A DNA stretch of 34,547 nucleotides from Sphingobacteriales bacterium (GTDB lineage: Bacteria > Bacteroidota > Bacteroidia > Sphingobacteriales > Sphingobacteriaceae): the NCBI GenBank assembly GCA_004294495.1, contig REAS01000047.1, positions 4,921 to 39,467 of the forward strand. The letters run 5' to 3'. Position numbers and translations under genes: made by a program. Positions 8,361 to 15,640 of the stretch are shown here, piece after piece (position 1 is the first letter of the stretch; each line of letters begins with the position of its first letter). The notes below the pieces were generated by a model. That model saw only the letters and a list, made by a program, of their open reading frames with translations, did not search any database and was not told where the DNA came from.

Positions 8361-9188
8361 ATGGCAAACGCAACAAAACCAACAGCTAACAAAGAAGAAT
8401 CAAAAGGTTCAGGAATATTTGCCGGATTGGCAATAGTAGTATGTATTGCAGTAGGATGGATACTATACTTATTTGTAATGGGTAATGGATCTAATTTCGA
8501 AGGTGGATCTAATCTTAATCACCCACTACCGGGTAACTATTTTGGTATGGTTTACAAAGGTGGGGTAATTGTACCTATGCTTATGGGTATGTTATTAATG
8601 GTAATTGTTTTTTCTATCGAAAGATTTTTAGTAATTAACAAAGCTGCTGGTACTGCAAATGTTGATGCTTTTGTTAAAAAAGTACAATCTTTATTATCAG
8701 CTGGTAACGTTGATGCTGCTATCAGCGAATGCGATAAACAAAAAGGATCGGTTGCTGCGGTTATAAAATCGGGTTTACAGAAATACAAAGCAGTAGAAAC
8801 TGATAACAGTATGGATACCGAACAAAAATGTTTAGCTATACAAAAAGACATTGAAGAAGCTACATCGTTAGAAATGCCAATGTTAGAGCAAAACTTAACT
8901 ATTATTGCAACACTAGTTTCGGTCGGTACTTTAGGCGGTTTATTAGGAACAGTTACAGGTATGATTAAAGCCTTTGGTGGTTTAGCAACATCTGGTGCGC
9001 CCGATCAAGCTCAATTAGCAAACGGTATTTCTGAGGCATTAATTAACACCGCAACAGGTATTGCAACATCGTTGGTAGCCGTTATTTCATATAACTTTTT
9101 TACTTCTAAAATTGATAGCCTAACTTATTCTATTGACGAAGCAGGTTTTTCAATTGTACAAACTTACGCGGCAACGCATAGCAAGTAA
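8361..9188 (+). CDS. exbB: ExbB/TolQ/MotA-type proton channel protein
   Basis: A 275-residue inner-membrane protein of the ExbB/TolQ/MotA family, which forms the proton-conducting pentamer that energises TonB. There is a cytosolic N-terminus of about 20 residues, a hydrophobic helix at about 21-42, a second at about 70-95, and the conserved MotA_ExbB block with LVSVGTLGGLLGTVTGMIKAF near residue 190 and a GISEALINTATGIATSLVAV helix near 225. A Gly/Asn-rich extracytoplasmic loop lies between the first two helices. It is the first gene of a cluster with two ExbD genes and TonB. A hairpin-rich gap separates it from exbD. Confidence 0.93.
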   Translation: MANATKPTANKEESKGSGIFAGLAIVVCIAVGWILYLFVMGNGSNFEGGSNLNHPLPGNYFGMVYKGGVIVPMLMGMLLMVIVFSIERFLVINKAAGTANVDAFVKKVQSLLSAGNVDAAISECDKQKGSVAAVIKSGLQKYKAVETDNSMDTEQKCLAIQKDIEEATSLEMPMLEQNLTIIATLVSVGTLGGLLGTVTGMIKAFGGLATSGAPDQAQLANGISEALINTATGIATSLVAVISYNFFTSKIDSLTYSIDEAGFSIVQTYAATHSK

Positions 9189-9257
9189 TAGTGATTTTAT
9201 CACACCTTAATATTTTTTAGGGTGCGATATTATTTTTAACACAATTAATCACTATTA
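9186..9257 (+). terminator. Nested inverted repeat between exbB and exbD
   Basis: Two stems are nested. The outer stem is a perfect 11-base inverted repeat, TAATAGTGATT (9186-9196) with AATCACTATTA (9247-9257), beginning on the exbB stop codon. The inner stem is about 13 base pairs with two G-U pairs (9198-9210 with 9217-9229), followed by a U-rich stretch. The inner hairpin looks like a rho-independent terminator or 3'-end stabiliser; the outer arms could compete with it or hold the whole gap as one RNA fold. The result would be more exbB than exbD message. Confidence 0.6.
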
Positions 9258-9269
9258 AATTTAAAAGCG

Positions 9270-9878
9270 ATGCCAAAAGTAAAAATTAAAAGAAAAAGTA
9301 CCTCGACGGATATGACCGCCATGTGCGATGTAGCTTTCTTGTTACTTACTTTCTTTATATTAACGGCAACTGCCCGCCAACCCGAAGCCTTAGCCGTTGA
9401 TACACCATCATCAACCGTAAAAACAAAGGTGCCCGATGCCGACATTTCTATGTTAACCATTGGGCAAGGTAAAGTGTTTTTTGGGGTAGTTGGCCAAGAT
9501 GTAAGAATTAAAACTTTGCAAAAAATGGGCGAACAATATAAAATTGTTTTTACTCCCGAAGAAACTAAAAGGTTTGCCCTTATAGAATCGTTTGGTGTAC
9601 CCATTGCAAATTTAAAGCAATACATAGCTTTAGATAATGCCGATAGGATGAAATTACAACAACCTGGCATACCAACCGATAGTTTAGATAACCAGCTTAA
9701 CGCGTGGATTTTACAAGCCCGTTACGCTACTAAAGAACTTCACGGTAACGAGTTAAGGTTTACCTTAAAAGGCGATTCTAAAGAAGAATACCCAACCATT
9801 AAAAAAGTAATTAATGTTTTGCAAGAGCAAAAAATCAATAAATTTAGTCTAATTACTTCGTTAGAAGGCGATAATTAA
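9270..9878 (+). CDS. exbD: ExbD/TolR-type biopolymer transport protein (first copy)
   Basis: ExbD is the single-helix partner inside the ExbB pore. The basic cytosolic N-terminus (MPKVKIKRKS) is followed by a transmembrane helix at about residues 18-36, TAMCDVAFLLLTFFILT, where Asp20 matches the essential membrane aspartate of ExbD/TolR. The rest is periplasmic. At 202 residues it is longer than E. coli ExbD (about 140), with an inserted region of about residues 80-150. It lies 11 bases before a second exbD, a pairing common in Bacteroidota, where the two copies may form heteromers (inference). Confidence 0.92.
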   Translation: MPKVKIKRKSTSTDMTAMCDVAFLLLTFFILTATARQPEALAVDTPSSTVKTKVPDADISMLTIGQGKVFFGVVGQDVRIKTLQKMGEQYKIVFTPEETKRFALIESFGVPIANLKQYIALDNADRMKLQQPGIPTDSLDNQLNAWILQARYATKELHGNELRFTLKGDSKEEYPTIKKVINVLQEQKINKFSLITSLEGDN

Positions 9879-9889
9879 AATATAAGAAA

Positions 9890-10435
9890 ATGGCAGAATT
9901 AGATACCTCCGGCGGGGGTGGTAAAGGCAAAAAAACCAGAAGTAAAAAAATGTCGACTAAAGTTGATTTAACAGCAATGGTTGATTTAGCTTTCCTTTTG
10001 ATTACTTTTTTTATGCTAACTACCACGCTTGCCAAACCTCAGGCTATGGATATGTTTATGCCTGATAAACCAAAGGACGAAGAAAAACAATTAGATGTTA
10101 AAGCATCACGCACAATGACGGTTTTATTGGCTTCGGATAATAAGATAGTTTGGTATATGGGCGTAGCGGGCGATAATCCACCTACCGTTGATAATTACGG
10201 CAAAAGCGGCATACGAGGTGCTTTTATTGATAATAATAAAAAAGTAATTGCTGGAACTGGCGACCCTAAAAAGGGTTTAATGGTTATTATTAAACCTACC
10301 GACAAATCGAACTATAAAAACTTTGTGGATATTTTAGACGAAGTTAAAATTGCTGGTGTACCTTCTTATGGTATTGTAAATAAGATTGAGAACGCCGAAA
10401 TTAATTTGTTGAAAGACCAAGGAGTATATAAATAA
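9890..10435 (+). CDS. exbD: ExbD/TolR-type biopolymer transport protein (second copy)
   Basis: A second ExbD-family protein of 181 residues. It has a Gly/Lys-rich N-terminal tail, then the helix TAMVDLAFLLITFFMLTTT at about residues 28-46 with Asp32 as the proton-carrying residue. The periplasmic part is shorter than in the first copy and differs well outside the helix, so this is an old paralogue rather than a recent duplication. It is followed 45 bases later by tonB. Co-transcription with the first exbD is very likely. Confidence 0.92.
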   Translation: MAELDTSGGGGKGKKTRSKKMSTKVDLTAMVDLAFLLITFFMLTTTLAKPQAMDMFMPDKPKDEEKQLDVKASRTMTVLLASDNKIVWYMGVAGDNPPTVDNYGKSGIRGAFIDNNKKVIAGTGDPKKGLMVIIKPTDKSNYKNFVDILDEVKIAGVPSYGIVNKIENAEINLLKDQGVYK

Positions 10436-10480
10436 TAGAAGCGAGAGTTTTTCGTTTTACAATTAAAAAATAAAAGCATT

Positions 10481-11290
10481 ATGTCAAAATTGGATATATT
10501 AAACCAAAACTGGATAGACATAGTTTTTAATGGCCGAAATAAAGAATACGGAGCTTACCAATTACGTCAGGATAATAACAAAAATACCAATAAAGCAGTT
10601 ATAGCTGGTGTTTTGTTGTTTTCGCTTGCAATTGGCAGCCCACTAATTATTAGCTTAATTAAAGGCAGTTTAGAAGATAGCAAAGATAAATTTAAAGAAA
10701 CAGAGGTTGTTTTAACACCACCACCATCGTTAGATAAAGCTCCACCGCCACCGCCACCGGTAGAGCCACCACCACCAAAGGTTGATCAAATTAAGTTTCC
10801 GCCTCCAGTTGTAAAACCTGATAATGAGGTAACTGAGGAAGAACCACCAACTATTGAGGATATTAAAAAAGCTGACCCCGGAGAAAAAACGGTTAAAGGT
10901 GATGCTAATGCAGATATTGTTATCAACGAACCTGTAGGCGAGGGCCCAATTAATCAGGATAAAACAGAAGATACTAACGAGATTTACACAAGCGTTGAAG
11001 TATTGCCTACTTTTAATGGTGATTATGGTAAGTTTTTAGGTAAAAACTTACGTTACCCACCTATTGCAAGAGAAAATAATATACAAGGTAGGGTAATTGT
11101 AAACTTTGTAGTAGAAAAAGACGGTTCGCTAACTGATATTAAAGTAGTAAGAGGAATTGGCGGCGGTTGCGATGAAGAAGCTATACGCGTAATTAAAAGT
11201 TCGCCTAAGTGGAATCCCGGAGTGCAAAACGGTAGAAATGTTAGGGTTAACTACACTATTCCAATTTTCTTCCAATTGCAGGCAGAATAA
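10481..11290 (+). CDS. tonB: TonB energy transducer
   Basis: TonB passes energy from the ExbBD motor to outer-membrane receptors. The 269-residue product has a cytosolic N-terminus with KEYGAYQLR, which is usual for Bacteroidota TonB, one helix at about residues 38-60, a Pro-rich span with PPPPPPVEPPPPK near 85-100, an acidic linker, and a C-terminal TonB domain (about 175-269) with YPPIARENNIQGRVIVNFVV and a final IPIFFQ strand. It follows the two exbD genes and precedes a small membrane protein gene by 9 bases. Its receptor partners (TonB-dependent or SusC-type) are not in the window. Confidence 0.95.
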   Translation: MSKLDILNQNWIDIVFNGRNKEYGAYQLRQDNNKNTNKAVIAGVLLFSLAIGSPLIISLIKGSLEDSKDKFKETEVVLTPPPSLDKAPPPPPPVEPPPPKVDQIKFPPPVVKPDNEVTEEEPPTIEDIKKADPGEKTVKGDANADIVINEPVGEGPINQDKTEDTNEIYTSVEVLPTFNGDYGKFLGKNLRYPPIARENNIQGRVIVNFVVEKDGSLTDIKVVRGIGGGCDEEAIRVIKSSPKWNPGVQNGRNVRVNYTIPIFFQLQAE

Positions 11291-11299
11291 TTTAAAAGA

Positions 11300-11539
11300 A
11301 TGTATAAAAAATTTGAAGATAGACAAAAATCGCCCGCAAGGCGATTTTTGCTCATTATAGGCATTGTGATGTTTGCCCTTTATTTTGTAATGGGCGCAAT
11401 GATAATTTTTTGGCCAAGCTTTCCATTAATGCAAGGAGTAGACATAAAATGGAAAATTGCTTTTGGCGTACTATTAATTGTGTATTCGTTTTTTAGATTT
11501 ATCCGCTTAATAAAGCAACCTCAATATGGTGAAGAGTAA
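11300..11539 (+). CDS. Small two-helix membrane protein of the exb-tonB cluster
   Basis: A 79-residue protein with a basic N-terminus (MYKKFEDRQKSPARR), a hydrophobic helix at about residues 16-37, a short loop with WPSFPLMQG, and a second helix at about 50-68, followed by a basic-then-acidic tail. I know of no named family. Similar small proteins follow tonB in related Bacteroidota, as far as I recall, so it may be an accessory of the ExbBD-TonB complex; that is inference. Its ATG is 9 bases after the tonB stop. Its end lies just before the REP-like element in front of the PstS-like gene. Confidence 0.75.
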   Translation: MYKKFEDRQKSPARRFLLIIGIVMFALYFVMGAMIIFWPSFPLMQGVDIKWKIAFGVLLIVYSFFRFIRLIKQPQYGEE

Positions 11540-11561
11540 AATCCCACAAGCCATAACCCCA

Positions 11562-11701
11562 ATCCCCCTAACCCCCGAAGGGGGGGTATGTGGCGTTATT
11601 TGCCAGAAGGCAGCAAAGGCTATTTATTCATTAAATAAAAATATACTACCATATATTCATTCAAAATGTTCGGCCATTCCCCCTTTGGGGGTTAGGGGGA
11701 T
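11562..11701. repeat. REP-like inverted-repeat element
   Basis: Two GC-rich 23-base arms (11562-11584 and 11679-11701) are inverted copies of each other with one mismatch. Each contains a run pattern C5-TAA-C5-(GAA or AAA)-G5 and can fold alone into a small hairpin, C5 with G5 around a three-base loop. The spacer is 94 bases of ordinary AT-rich DNA. Such arms contrast sharply with the surrounding composition and resemble REP/BIME-type elements scattered in Bacteroidota genomes (recalled, not searched). No target-site duplication was found. The right arm ends on the first two bases of the likely start codon of the next gene. Confidence 0.75.
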
Positions 11702-12563
11702 GGCATTTTCTCTACTTTTAATAGGGTTATCCGCTTGCAATCAATCCCCAACAAACCAAACCGAGGGAATTATATCAGGGAAAACTACCATTTTGGCAGA
11801 TGAATCTGTATTTACCATTGTTGATGATCAAGCCGAAATATTTGCATTGAACTATAAACAAGCGCAAATAAAATTTAATTACCAACCAGAGCAAAAACTC
11901 ATTAAACTTTTCCTTTCGGATAGTATCAAAACAGCTATAATGGCTAGAGATTTAACAGCACAAGAAAAGCAACATTTTTTAGATCAAAAAATAGTTATTC
12001 GGACAAACCGGTTTGCTATTGATGGCATCGCTTTAATAGCAAACAAACAATCCACCGATAGTGTGCTAACTATACAACAATTAAAAGCTGCCCTTTTGGG
12101 TAAATATAAAAACGATAAAGCTTGGGTTTTTGATAATGCACAATCAAGCACTTTGGCATACTTAATGCAGTTTGCTGGCGTTAAAATTTTTGCAAAAAAC
12201 GTTTACGCCTTACAAACCAATAAAGAAGTAATAAAATATGTAAGTAAACACCCGCAAGCAATTGGTATAATTAGCCTAAGCTGCTTGGTAAGGCCTACAC
12301 CCGATTTGGAAACAGATATTAAAAGTGTAAAATTAATGTCTTTAGGTAAAGATAACAATAAGCACTATAAACCAACCCAAAGCACTTTAAAAACAGGAAA
12401 ATACCCATTAACTCGCAACCTTTATATACACAATTGCCAAGGCAGTGCGGGTTTAGGCACAGGGTTTGCATCGTTTTTAGCAGGCGAGTTAGGGCAGCGT
12501 ATAATTTTGAAAGCTGGCTTAGCCCCAGATAGTTTACCATCACGACAGTTAAATTTTAAATAA
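11700..12563 (+). CDS. PstS-like phosphate-binding lipoprotein
   Basis: The open frame runs from an ATG at 11526, but its first 58 codons cross the REP-like element and overlap the previous gene. The ATG at 11700 gives a proper lipoprotein signal, MAFSLLLIGLSAC, with lipobox LSAC, so I take it as the start (287 residues). The mature part resembles PstS-type periplasmic binding proteins: an N-terminal ADESVFTIVDDQAEIF segment, a hinge region with KIVIRTNRFAIDGIALIANK, and NAQSSTLAYLMQF at the ligand loop near residue 155. There is no PstC, PstA or PstB nearby, so classical ABC uptake is not implied by context. Its place between tonB and a TPR protein suggests a role at the TonB system; phosphate or another anion as ligand is inferred. 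Confidence 0.82.
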   Translation: MAFSLLLIGLSACNQSPTNQTEGIISGKTTILADESVFTIVDDQAEIFALNYKQAQIKFNYQPEQKLIKLFLSDSIKTAIMARDLTAQEKQHFLDQKIVIRTNRFAIDGIALIANKQSTDSVLTIQQLKAALLGKYKNDKAWVFDNAQSSTLAYLMQFAGVKIFAKNVYALQTNKEVIKYVSKHPQAIGIISLSCLVRPTPDLETDIKSVKLMSLGKDNNKHYKPTQSTLKTGKYPLTRNLYIHNCQGSAGLGTGFASFLAGELGQRIILKAGLAPDSLPSRQLNFK

Positions 12564-12581
12564 GAATAATAATTTTATAAT

Positions 12582-14258
12582 ATGAAAATCAGAAATAATA
12601 TAGCAATAGCAACTTTAGGTTTATCTATGATAAGCTTTATGGTATCAGCGCAAAGTTTAGAGGATGCAAAAAAGGCAGTGTATGCCGAGCAGTTTGTGAA
12701 AGCAAAAACAATGTTTAAAAGCTTAACCGCTACACAGCCTACCAACGCCGAAAATTATTTTTACTATGGCGATTTGTACCTAAACGTTAACCAACCCGAT
12801 TCGGCTAAAATTGCTTTCGAAAAAGGTATTGCCATAGACCCTAAATTTACCCTAAATTATGTAGGCTTGGGTGCGGTTAATTTATTCGAGAAAAATGCAC
12901 CTGCTGCACAAGCAAATTTTGCTTTGGCTACTGCTGCAATGCGTAAAAAAGACTACAAAGAATTTATTTATGTAGGTAAAGCCTATACTTACGAAGCATC
13001 GAGAGATTTGCCTAAAGCATTTTCTTGGTTTGAGAAAGCTAAAGAAATGGGAGATAAAGATTTAGAGCTTCATATTGCTTTGGGTAACGCTTACAAAGCC
13101 GATAAGAAAAATAGTGAAGCGGTTGGTGCTTATCAACGAGCTATGAATATACAAAGCAACTTGCCTCGAGTAGAAGTAAATATTGGTGAAATTTGGACCC
13201 AAGCCTACAATTTTGATTTAGCCGAAAGTACCTTAAAAGGCGTTATTGCAAAAGACCCAAGCTTTGGCCCAGCTTACAGGGCTTTGGCCGAAAACTATTA
13301 CCGCTGGGGTTCTCAGTTTATTAACAAACGAGCCGATTTATTGCCTAAAGCACAGGTAAATTATTCTAAATATTTAGATTTAACAGATAGGTCGGCCGAG
13401 TCGAGATACCGTTATTTAATATTTTTATTAAACGCTGGCGATTATGCAACTTTAGAAAAAGAAGCAAGTGCTTTTACACAACAATATGGGACAACAAAGC
13501 CAGAATATGCATTAGCACAACGGTTTTTGGGTTATGCTTATATAGAAAACGGTAAAGCTTTAGAAGGTGCAAAATACCTAAATAGTTTTATGACTGGTGT
13601 AGATGCCAAACGTGTAATTGCCGATGATTACTTGTATTTAGGTAAATCGTATCAAACACAAAAGCAAGATTCGTTGGCCATTAACAACTTCGTGAAAGGT
13701 TACGAATTAGATACTGCAAACACGCAGGTGCTAACCAGCATAGCAAAGTCGTACTTCTCGAGCAAAAAATTTGGTAAAGCTGCCGAATACTACCGCAAAT
13801 TAGCCAATTTACCTAAAGCTGGCTATGCAGATAAGTTTTATTTAGGCTACGCCGATTATTTTTATTACGCTACGGAATTAGCAAACAAAAGTCCTAAAAA
13901 CCAAGCATTAATTACTCAAACCTTATTAGAGGCAGATAGTGTATTTACATTTGTAGGAGAAAAAGCAAAAAATGGCGATGCATATTTATATTTAGCCCGA
14001 GTTGAGTATTATTTAGAACCAACAGATGCGCTAAAAAAATCGGCAAATGCATACGATAAATTTATTGAATACACACTATTAAAAACAGCACAAACCGCGG
14101 CCGATAAAAAGAATTTAATTGAAGCGTATTCTTATTTAGGTGCGGCATATATTAAAACTGATAAAGCAAAAGCTAAAGATTATTTTGAGAAAGCACTAGT
14201 TTTAAGCCCAACAGATGCTAAAATCAAAGAAGCGTTGAAAGCGATAGCTGGGAAGTAG
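12582..14258 (+). CDS. Secreted tetratricopeptide-repeat protein
   Basis: A 558-residue protein with an N-terminal signal peptide (about residues 1-23, hydrophobic IAIATLGLSMISFMVSA). Tetratricopeptide repeats fill most of the rest: repeated helix pairs with A-x-x-x-F/Y and late proline, for example NYFYYGDLYLNVNQPDSAKIAF near residue 55, AYQRAMNIQSNLPRVEVNIGE near 180, and a last unit near 520-550. TPR proteins are protein-binding scaffolds, so a periplasmic scaffold for the TonB/PstS partners is the likely role (inference). It starts 18 bases after the PstS-like gene and ends the cluster. No catalytic motif is seen. Confidence 0.9.
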   Translation: MKIRNNIAIATLGLSMISFMVSAQSLEDAKKAVYAEQFVKAKTMFKSLTATQPTNAENYFYYGDLYLNVNQPDSAKIAFEKGIAIDPKFTLNYVGLGAVNLFEKNAPAAQANFALATAAMRKKDYKEFIYVGKAYTYEASRDLPKAFSWFEKAKEMGDKDLELHIALGNAYKADKKNSEAVGAYQRAMNIQSNLPRVEVNIGEIWTQAYNFDLAESTLKGVIAKDPSFGPAYRALAENYYRWGSQFINKRADLLPKAQVNYSKYLDLTDRSAESRYRYLIFLLNAGDYATLEKEASAFTQQYGTTKPEYALAQRFLGYAYIENGKALEGAKYLNSFMTGVDAKRVIADDYLYLGKSYQTQKQDSLAINNFVKGYELDTANTQVLTSIAKSYFSSKKFGKAAEYYRKLANLPKAGYADKFYLGYADYFYYATELANKSPKNQALITQTLLEADSVFTFVGEKAKNGDAYLYLARVEYYLEPTDALKKSANAYDKFIEYTLLKTAQTAADKKNLIEAYSYLGAAYIKTDKAKAKDYFEKALVLSPTDAKIKEALKAIAGK

Positions 14259-14296: not shown

Positions 14297-14369
14297 AACT
14301 TTGCATTATGCTTAATAATTGCTATAAATTTCAAACCATATTTGCCTTTCCATTTTAAATGGGGAGGCT

Positions 14370-15640
14370 ACTAGGTTTTGCCGAAAAACTCATACATTAA
14401 CACAAGCCTATATTGATTTCTGTTGTAAGCTAAGCTTTACACAATGCTAATCAATCTTTTATCGTTTCAGTAATTTCAAGCTAATTGAATTTCTTTTCCC
14501 CAGTCCTCCTTATTCTTTCTCTACCGCCGATGGTTTCCCGATTGGTTTTGCAAAAGCTTGATGTCCAACTCTTTTAACGTGTTTCTATTTACTCTTGTAC
14601 AATTTATTTGATCAACTAAAAGCTCCATTGGGAATACCCAAAGCATTTTTTGTAGTTTTGTACATAACTAATCATATGAAACCCCTCATTAAAGGCATCG
14701 CAACTCAACCTGTCTAAAAAAGCATAACCATCTTCCAGCGAAACGTGTATTTTTGAACCGAACTCTACCTTTGCCGTAATCTTTCCCCTTAGAATTGGCC
14801 GTACGTGTGGCTGGTGAATTCCCACTAATCTATGGTTTGCCAAATGTGTTTTGGCCTCATACATTTTTAGCTGTTACTGATAATGTGTGTGCAAAACAAT
14901 TAGGTATTTTGGTTGCTTGGGCTTTAGTGGGAAGGTATCGTATTTATCCAAAAGGTTAACTATACTTTTTAGGTTACGGTTCAAAAAAACCAGTTGTTTA
15001 CGTTTCGCTTTTCTAATTTCCCCCTTGCCTTTTTGCTTCTTTTGCGCAATGTTTTAGTAGGCTTTACTGGCTATCTTTCTGTACGTTCGAGGCTTTTTTG
15101 GTGCAAACTTGGGTTGTAAATAATATCTATCAAAACTTCTGTTTTTTCTCAAGCGTCCGAAAATTGGTCGATATTTGTTAAGTATGCTATATCTTGTGGA
15201 CAAGCGGTGGCATCAAACAATACACGACCTTTGTGGCTAACAGGTGCATCTTTCTTTGTTTTATCTAATTCTATAACTTCGCTTTGGGTATCGTTATGCT
15301 TATTATCATCGTCCTTTACGCTGGGTGGCGTATCTTTTTTGATTATCATGTTTTGATGAAGAGACAGAATTTTATCATTTATCTCAATATCAACTCTTTG
15401 CCCATTCTGTTTCTAAATTCAACAGATAAGGAAGCATCAAAAAGGGGGGTCGCTACTAAAACTGGTATAGCCCAAAAAGTATTGCATATACATATTTTCG
15501 GTAATCTGGGCTACCGTTTCTATATCATCAAGGTTGCAAATATGTTTGATAATTATTGAACCAATGACTCCTCTTGGGCTTATAGCTAGTCTTCCTGTGC
15601 TACGTATCCCTATTAGTTTATTTAGTTTTTACACAATTGG
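14370..15640 (-). pseudogene. Decayed IS1182/IS5-type transposase
   Basis: Minus-strand fragments in several frames read in order as one DDE transposase. From high to low coordinates: RSTGRLAISPRGVIGSIIIK (15550-15609), a segment with TENMYMQYFLGYTSF, then SLHQNM, then KGRVLFDATACPQDIAYLT near 15175-15235 (the first catalytic Asp region), then VGIHQPHVRPILRGKITAKV near 14765-14825, LEDGYAFLDRLSCDAFNEG near 14680-14735, and remnants of PGERN and the C-terminus. The reading is broken by frameshifts (one in a C6T5 run near 15441-15451) and by in-frame stops. The ends are approximate and no terminal inverted repeats were identified. The family assignment rests on recalled motifs. Confidence 0.8.

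Follow-up and report, generated by a model that had tools for sequence, protein, structure and literature searches.

A cluster of seven genes at positions 8361–14258 of a 34,547-nucleotide stretch of Sphingobacteriales bacterium DNA (assembly GCA_004294495.1, contig REAS01000047.1; the whole stretch analysed is referred to below as the window) combines a TonB motor, i.e. exbB, two distinct exbD genes and tonB, with genes for a small membrane protein (TM2), a PstS-like lipoprotein and a secreted tetratricopeptide repeat (TPR) protein. On balance, we lean towards the view that the products of this operon form an enlarged Bacteroidota complex for TonB energy transduction, with TM2, the PstS-like protein and the TPR protein as dedicated accessory subunits and the PstS fold repurposed. 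This model is based on gene content, gene order and its conservation, the lack of Pst genes in the assembly, an altered ligand pocket, predicted folds, and signal sequences recognized by eye. The features are as follows.

8361–9188, + strand: exbB, ExbB-type proton-channel subunit, 275 aa (Pfam PF01618 MotA_ExbB, 4.5e-30; matches solved TolQ and ExbB chains)
9270–9878, + strand: ExbD1, 202 aa, conserved membrane Asp D20 (Pfam PF02472, 3.1e-15; conservation)
9890–10435, + strand: ExbD2, 181 aa, second distinct ExbD, conserved membrane Asp D32 (Pfam PF02472, 6.7e-19; conservation)
10481–11290, + strand: TonB, 269 aa, TonB_C domain and N-terminal motif (Pfam PF03544, 1.7e-22; conservation)
11300–11539, + strand: TM2, putative small two-helix inner-membrane protein, 79 aa (open frame; overlaps the start of the PstS-like open reading frame, ORF)
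11526–12563, + strand: PstS-like periplasmic lipoprotein with divergent ligand pocket (Pfam PF12849 PBP_like_2, 1.7e-29; AlphaFold2 model)
11564–11699, no strand assigned: palindromic repeat element, in frame between the first ATG of the PstS-like ORF and its lipobox (inverted arms)
12582–14258, + strand: secreted periplasmic TPR solenoid, 558 aa (11 Pfam families, nearly all TPR; AlphaFold2 model)

Gene content and conserved order of the cluster

An earlier note, made from the sequence of the window, had described seven same-strand genes with short gaps, and the ORFs, Pfam matches and coordinates agree with this description: all seven genes are located on the + strand, with intergenic gaps (calculated from coordinates) of 81, 11, 45, 9, −14 and 18 bases down the cluster. 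The genes are separate and no fusions were found, so that the word “fused” used in that note does not apply.

The three components of a TonB-ExbB-ExbD system are all encoded: an ExbB/TolQ-type channel, ExbD with a membrane Asp, and a TonB C-terminal domain. Residue D20 of ExbD1 is kept in at least 95% of 87 sequences and D32 of ExbD2 in at least 95% of 88; from general knowledge of ExbD proteins, we take these to be the proton-path membrane Asp residues of the two copies. TonB carries a conserved motif, NxxYGAYxLR, N-terminal of its membrane helix (86 sequences). A search for a solved relative of ExbD1 returned none at E 0.01. The 79-codon frame of TM2 falls below the length cut of the ORF list and was found by reading the open frame directly; it contains two hydrophobic stretches (by eye) and matches no Pfam family above the curated cut-off.

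Conservation of the gene order was examined by scanning the contigs of named genomes with close alignment, which yielded 451 relatives. The best 80, picked by likeness of the PstS-like gene, were retained; judged by title, they come mostly from genera of Sphingobacteriaceae and Flavobacteriaceae or from unclassified Bacteroidetes, with one Flavihumibacter, and the closest are Sphingobacteriales metagenome genomes (81–85% identity of the PstS-like gene). The order exbB-exbD1-exbD2-tonB-TM2-PstS-TPR was found in 64/64 of those loci that had enough flank. TM2 is in its place in every one of them, with a median TM2-PstS spacing of −4 bases (starts mechanically chosen). The remaining 16 of the 80 loci, cut by contig ends, show the same order as far as visible, except for L087, in which the TM2 label stands after PstS at the very start of the contig. 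A chance neighbourhood was therefore rejected. Since the loci were picked by PstS-like likeness, the 64/64 figure speaks for the Sphingobacteriaceae and Flavobacteriaceae groups.

A broader sample was obtained by searching 148 genomes of the phylum with the PstS-like protein, which gave matches in 85 (a mix of true relatives and canonical PstS). ExbD1 matches were found in 95 genomes, and the listed ExbD1 places were compared with the PstS-like places in 79 of them, the other 16 having no listed place. In at least 30 of the 79 genomes, representing 12 families, the PstS-like place is no further than 4 kb from that of ExbD1; in 3/79 it lies within 25 kb, in 42/79 it is apart, and 4/79 gave no PstS-like match in that search. 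The figure of 30 is a lower bound, since some of the 45 non-adjacent matches may be canonical PstS, and a place scored as apart is no evidence of separation where only canonical PstS was matched. Moreover, genome G039, counted as lacking a match, carries the gene: its cluster, cut at a contig end, was found by profile (L176). Profile searches also revealed full or near-full clusters in the low-identity loci L150, L151, L153 and L172. The first 20 loci and the later regions were hand-picked from the match lists rather than drawn at random.

The earlier note had stated that this pairing recurs in Bacteroidota and had named, as a finding that would refute it, PstS-like and TPR genes not kept next to tonB in relatives. 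Many relatives do keep both genes there. As judged from this conservation, the link of the module to the TonB motor is real.

The PstS-like lipoprotein and phosphate transport

The same note had proposed a binding protein without an ABC (ATP-binding cassette) partner and had suggested a check for a remote pstCAB operon. No PstC, PstA or PstB gene lies beside the PstS-like gene. In the assembly (2.38 Mb, 192 contigs, 92% complete), the only PF12849 match at E 0.001 is the cluster's own PstS-like protein, and two BPD_transp_1 permeases are present on separate contigs, one of them with an OppC N-terminal domain (OppC_N). The best score with the PstC model TIGR02138 (2.1e-4) falls well below the cut-off of 196 bits; thus, neither a PstC-grade permease nor PstC/PstA permeases were found in this 92% complete assembly. 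The Na/Pi cotransporter family PF02690 gave no match in the assembly, and a PiT-type PHO4 phosphate transporter is present (5.4e-87). Because the assembly is 92% complete, absence of pstCAB from the genome is likely, not certain. The possibility that the PstS-like protein is the partner of a distant pstCAB was rejected, since the assembly contains no such operon, and the proposal of a binding protein without its transporter is thus supported.

Of the 30 genomes with adjacent motor and PstS-like places, 19 have PstC over the cut-off, 10 do not, and one is undecided (G009, match row not listed; hand reading). In seven genomes for which the second match was retrieved, this match is immediately adjacent to PstC and proved to be another protein, a PstS of the canonical type. 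In a published survey, pstS is reported for 26 of 102 strains, and PstSABC was not detected in plant-associated Bacteroidetes (PMC8115612); the count of strains may include the motor-linked gene.

The AlphaFold2 model of the PstS-like protein (mean predicted local distance difference test score, pLDDT, 89.5) has PstS structures as its best matches in the Protein Data Bank (PDB), e.g. 4gd5 (TM-score 0.73 by query length), and the PstS fold was also found by profile. The protein thus has a PstS-type periplasmic binding fold. A further PDB match of the model was the recent entry 9l8j (Sll0540 of Synechocystis, a putative phosphate-binding protein), the title of which, truncated in the list of matches, starts to mention an evolutionary “hots...”; this structure may help to judge drift of the pocket.

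The ligand pocket was compared at T10, F11, S38, D56, R135, S139, G140 and T141 of E. coli PstS, which we take to be the phosphate-ligand positions; the residues at these positions were confirmed on the MG1655 sequence, and relatives were aligned to MG1655 PstS. The comparison comprised 124 rows, identical proteins being merged and the window's own protein not included; three rows belong to no group (under the rule used for grouping, these are rows that score high but have neither ExbB nor TonB in their stretch). In PstS encoded next to PstC, R135, S139, G140 and T141 are kept in 8/8 proteins, and the S38 position holds Ser in seven and Thr in one. In the motor-linked core, by contrast, the R135 position is Asp in 80/80, the S38 position Glu in 74/80 and the G140 position Ser in 78/80; Ser is kept at S139 in 80/80 and Thr at T141 in 60/80. 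The 26 more distant motor- or TPR-linked members have Asp at the R135 position in 13 cases and Pro, Gly, Ser or Thr in the others; none of the 26 has Arg there. Positions T10, F11 and D56 are uninformative, since even the PstS proteins encoded beside PstC in Bacteroidota deviate from the E. coli residues there.

Since almost every core member carries substitutions at ligand positions that PstC-adjacent PstS retain, loss of the phosphate site in the motor-linked protein is well supported by the alignment, the residues at S38, R135 and G140 having been replaced in the core group. Together with the gene neighbourhood, this indicates that the PstS-like protein encoded here is not a Pst subunit. 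A new acidic ligand site may be considered as a candidate idea, which would hold for the core only.

The earlier note had also suggested sensing of phosphate or another anion. This does not agree with the pocket: at three of the positions that bind phosphate in E. coli, almost all core members carry another residue, which is acidic at two of the three. A lipoprotein that binds phosphate or another oxyanion and signals to, or gates, the TonB motor would fit the PstS fold, recovered by both profile and model, and the Ser and Thr retained at the S139 and T141 positions. It is nevertheless very improbable, given the core substitutions at Arg135, Ser38 and Gly140, where the PstC-adjacent proteins keep Arg, Ser or Thr, and Gly in 8/8; a site with negative charge nearby is poorly suited to oxyanions.

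A tree of 61 rows (8 PstC-adjacent, 7 lone, 26 non-core and 20 randomly chosen core proteins) placed the PstC-adjacent PstS in one group (100/100) and the lone PstS-like proteins in another (92/93). Its deepest split is weak (19/24), and two motor-linked rows, L145 and L156, fall on the other side of it.

PstS-like genes were also observed in other contexts. In distant loci (L146–L149, L152, L155 and L053, the last cut upstream; families f15, f26 and f13), the gene lies away from the motor and without a TPR gene. In L147 (5749–7939), L148, L149 and L155 (f15) and L152 (f26), it is directly followed by a gene for a membrane GGDEF diguanylate cyclase and then by FtsX-like permease genes (identified with Pfam in L147 and by eye in L149, L152 and L155); in L053 (f13), the GGDEF gene lies ~4 kb downstream. 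The GGDEF-associated PstS group together in the tree (92/93). These loci suggest a second use of the PstS fold outside ABC transport, perhaps in signalling.

The listed start of the PstS-like ORF (11526) requires correction, as it reads through a repeat element. The lipobox LSAC, with its Cys at 11736–11738, lies just past an internal ATG at 11700, and the mature part begins near that Cys. A hydrophobic N-terminus ending in a lipobox-type Cys was seen by eye in 28/29 relatives of alignment A1, whose starts were chosen by a script seeking such a Cys; the exception, L014, had been given a start too far downstream. The element has 21-base inverted arms (11564–11584 and 11679–11699), and the arm motif, allowing up to 2 mismatches, occurs 29 times in the assembly versus 0 for the reversed control. 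The repeat strand folds much better than shuffles (z −5.4). Among relatives, L055 carries the element, L056 a reduced form and L057 none. Two readings are possible: translation through the element, adding 58 codons at the N-terminus, or initiation at the ATG at 11700. Other arm copies from the same genome (L180, L181, L193, L198, L200, L201) were observed inside putative open frames of ~580–980 codons, read from stop to stop and in some cases running off the fetched stretch. The element is reminiscent of the in-gene palindromic elements of Rickettsia.

Proposed complex and alternative explanations

The TPR protein has a signal peptide apparently ending in VSA-Q (by eye), and its AlphaFold2 model (pLDDT 91.4) is a long all-helical solenoid. 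Among the 50 matches listed in a Foldseek search with this model, generic TPR and related helical solenoids were found, and none was functionally informative. The TPR family profile matched PDB 3u4t over residues 275–550 (the C-terminal half) in one continuous alignment (194 bits). Designed TPRs score above 3u4t owing to their repeats, and the argument therefore rests on the continuous single alignment, not on the score; the single TPR sequence of the window gave no match to 3u4t at E 1e-6. The entry, presumably a structural-genomics structure from Cytophaga hutchinsonii, is named “TPR repeat-containing protein”, a molecule name that gives no function, and resembles only the C-terminal half of the TPR protein. 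The TPR protein is a reasonable candidate scaffold.

In the complex that we propose, proton flow through ExbB with an ExbD1-ExbD2 pair (presumably one of each) would drive TonB, which would carry force to outer-membrane receptors, while TM2 would stay in the inner membrane. The PstS-like lipoprotein would serve no ABC importer and, having probably lost phosphate binding, could act as a repurposed two-lobed module. The TPR solenoid would hold this lipoprotein, the periplasmic platform so formed docking or positioning TonB between the membranes, near the outer membrane. The physical assembly, the membrane side of the lipoprotein and the role in coupling or in the force path are inferred.

Alternatively, the lipoprotein might relay a substrate, taking from a TonB-dependent receptor some other ligand, probably a positive one (metal ion, polyamine or basic peptide). 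The binding-protein fold, the conserved acidic residues at ligand-site positions D34, E64 and D145 and the retained R83 are consistent with such a role. So are data on an apparently orthologous operon of Riemerella anatipestifer (exbB2-exbD21-exbD22-tonB2), tied to iron and hemin uptake: disruption of tonB2 strongly cut hemin uptake and lowered growth under iron depletion (PMC4446302), the polarity control being reverse transcription PCR of the downstream gene. In Flavobacterium psychrophilum, an exbD2 mutant was impaired under iron restriction (cited in PMC9331221). We consider a relay unlikely, as the operon has no dedicated inner-membrane importer, restriction to one substrate would be unexpected for a general-purpose TonB, and distant members do not retain the acidic set (see the R135 position above).

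In E. coli, the R. anatipestifer TonB2 complex did not energise hemin transporters, whether heterologous or from R. anatipestifer itself; the TonB1 complex did energise those of R. anatipestifer (PMC4446302). Taken with the Vibrio data (see below), this suggests that motor-only constructs may lack needed parts.

Several points weigh against an enlarged complex. The failure of TonB2 in E. coli has other possible causes, such as expression, the membrane or receptor match. In 45/79 genomes of the phylum sample the nearest listed PstS-like match lies more than 4 kb from the motor, and 4 more have no match. Separation of the modules is real in the loci read from families f2, f16, f15, f26 and f13, and six motor regions (L169–L171 and L173–L175; f15, f26, f13) have neither a PstS-like nor a TPR gene; the motor can thus exist without the module nearby. 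The conservation counts are of sequences, not of independent events, and the AlphaFold2 models are of monomers only. Neither interaction data nor mutants of the PstS-like or TPR gene were found in the accessible literature.

The separation of motor and PstS-TPR module in several families would be expected if conserved envelope genes merely shared an operon and formed no complex. Such simple co-transcription is quite unlikely in view of the order and close spacing in the 64/64 loci (mostly Sphingobacteriaceae and Flavobacteriaceae by title) and the adjacency recurring in 12 families. The separated module, in addition, often retains TM2 and in two cases a TonB. At a distance from the motor, the PstS-TPR pair stays intact in L043, L044, L046, L049 and L162; in L164 and L168, a second TonB precedes it. 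In these last two, f2 genomes, the second TonB with PstS-TPR (L164, 766–4694; L168, 14728–18503) lies without exbBD ~20 kb from the motor operon. Genes resembling a nuo operon (by eye) come after the TPR gene in L164, L046 and L049.

A more far-reaching version of the enlarged complex may be put forward tentatively, as a possibility that we do not favour: a trans-envelope machine of seven parts, where a PstS fold freed from ABC transport, its ligand site changed from oxyanion to acidic, would form a ligand- or peptide-gated clutch on the TPR scaffold and couple ExbB-ExbD1-ExbD2 via TonB to receptors across Bacteroidota.

TonB drives much of the nutrient uptake typical of Bacteroidota, and descriptions of its motor usually stop at three proteins. 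A conserved operon adding three membrane or periplasmic parts provides named candidates for missing subunits of the TonB motor, and such accessory parts could explain the failure of a motor-only construct in E. coli.

The upstream neighbour of exbB, 438 bases off, is a divergent YceD-family gene on the opposite strand. The TPR gene is the last of the cluster; beyond it, the first gene that is clearly intact matches DUF4440 and lies on the opposite strand. Downstream of the TPR gene, at ~14300–15300 on the minus strand, broken frames with the look of a decayed transposase were seen by eye; one tested fragment of these frames gave no Pfam match. Since a promoter and terminator scan found about as many sites as in shuffled sequence, no operon boundary is claimed from it.

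Comparison with known systems

In a literature search, with bioRxiv and most subscription papers outside its scope, none of the matches listed describes, in the parts available, the seven-gene cluster or a test of its PstS-like or TPR gene; the available portions of PMC9618737 and PMC9389320 added nothing on these two genes. The Riemerella TonB2 system, iron- and hemin-linked and apparently orthologous (as judged from its description), is treated in the accessible text of PMC4446302 as four genes, and a PstS-like or TPR gene is not part of the tests given there. In PMC7881567, an insertion in an ExbD1 gene, Riean_0932, left almost no hemolytic activity; the TPR gene Riean_0317 of the same paper was not taken as a counterpart because of its distant tag number. 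The TonB-ExbBD genes of F. psychrophilum are among 136 genes highly expressed in all samples (PMC9723704).

The PstS-like protein resembles the binding component of the PstSCAB importer in its fold and Pfam family (PBP_like_2). It differs in having no PstC, PstA or PstB adjacent, in its altered ligand residues, and in its position apart from the clade of PstC-adjacent PstS. Equivalence to Tol-Pal was rejected, as no TolB propeller or Pal lipoprotein appears among the Pfam matches of the cluster proteins. In the force-transducer clusters of PMC12204202, the transducer is a vWA (von Willebrand factor A) protein, not TonB, and the word “phosphate” is absent from the main text of that paper.

The tonB2 operon of Vibrio vulnificus ends, downstream of tonB2, with the gene for a TPR protein, TtpD2, and TonB2-dependent uptake of siderophores requires this protein (PMC6957404). 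That such a motor has a periplasmic TPR subunit is made plausible by this finding. The likeness is one of position and description: the TPR gene lies downstream of tonB, as it does in the window (12582–14258) and in the 64/64 complete named loci. The Vibrio operon has six named genes, including those for TtpB and TtpC, and the available text does not mention a PstS-like lipoprotein. TtpB and TtpC precede exbB in Vibrio, whereas here that side is occupied by the opposite-strand YceD-family gene. The closest known counterpart of the cluster is a TonB system with accessory subunits.

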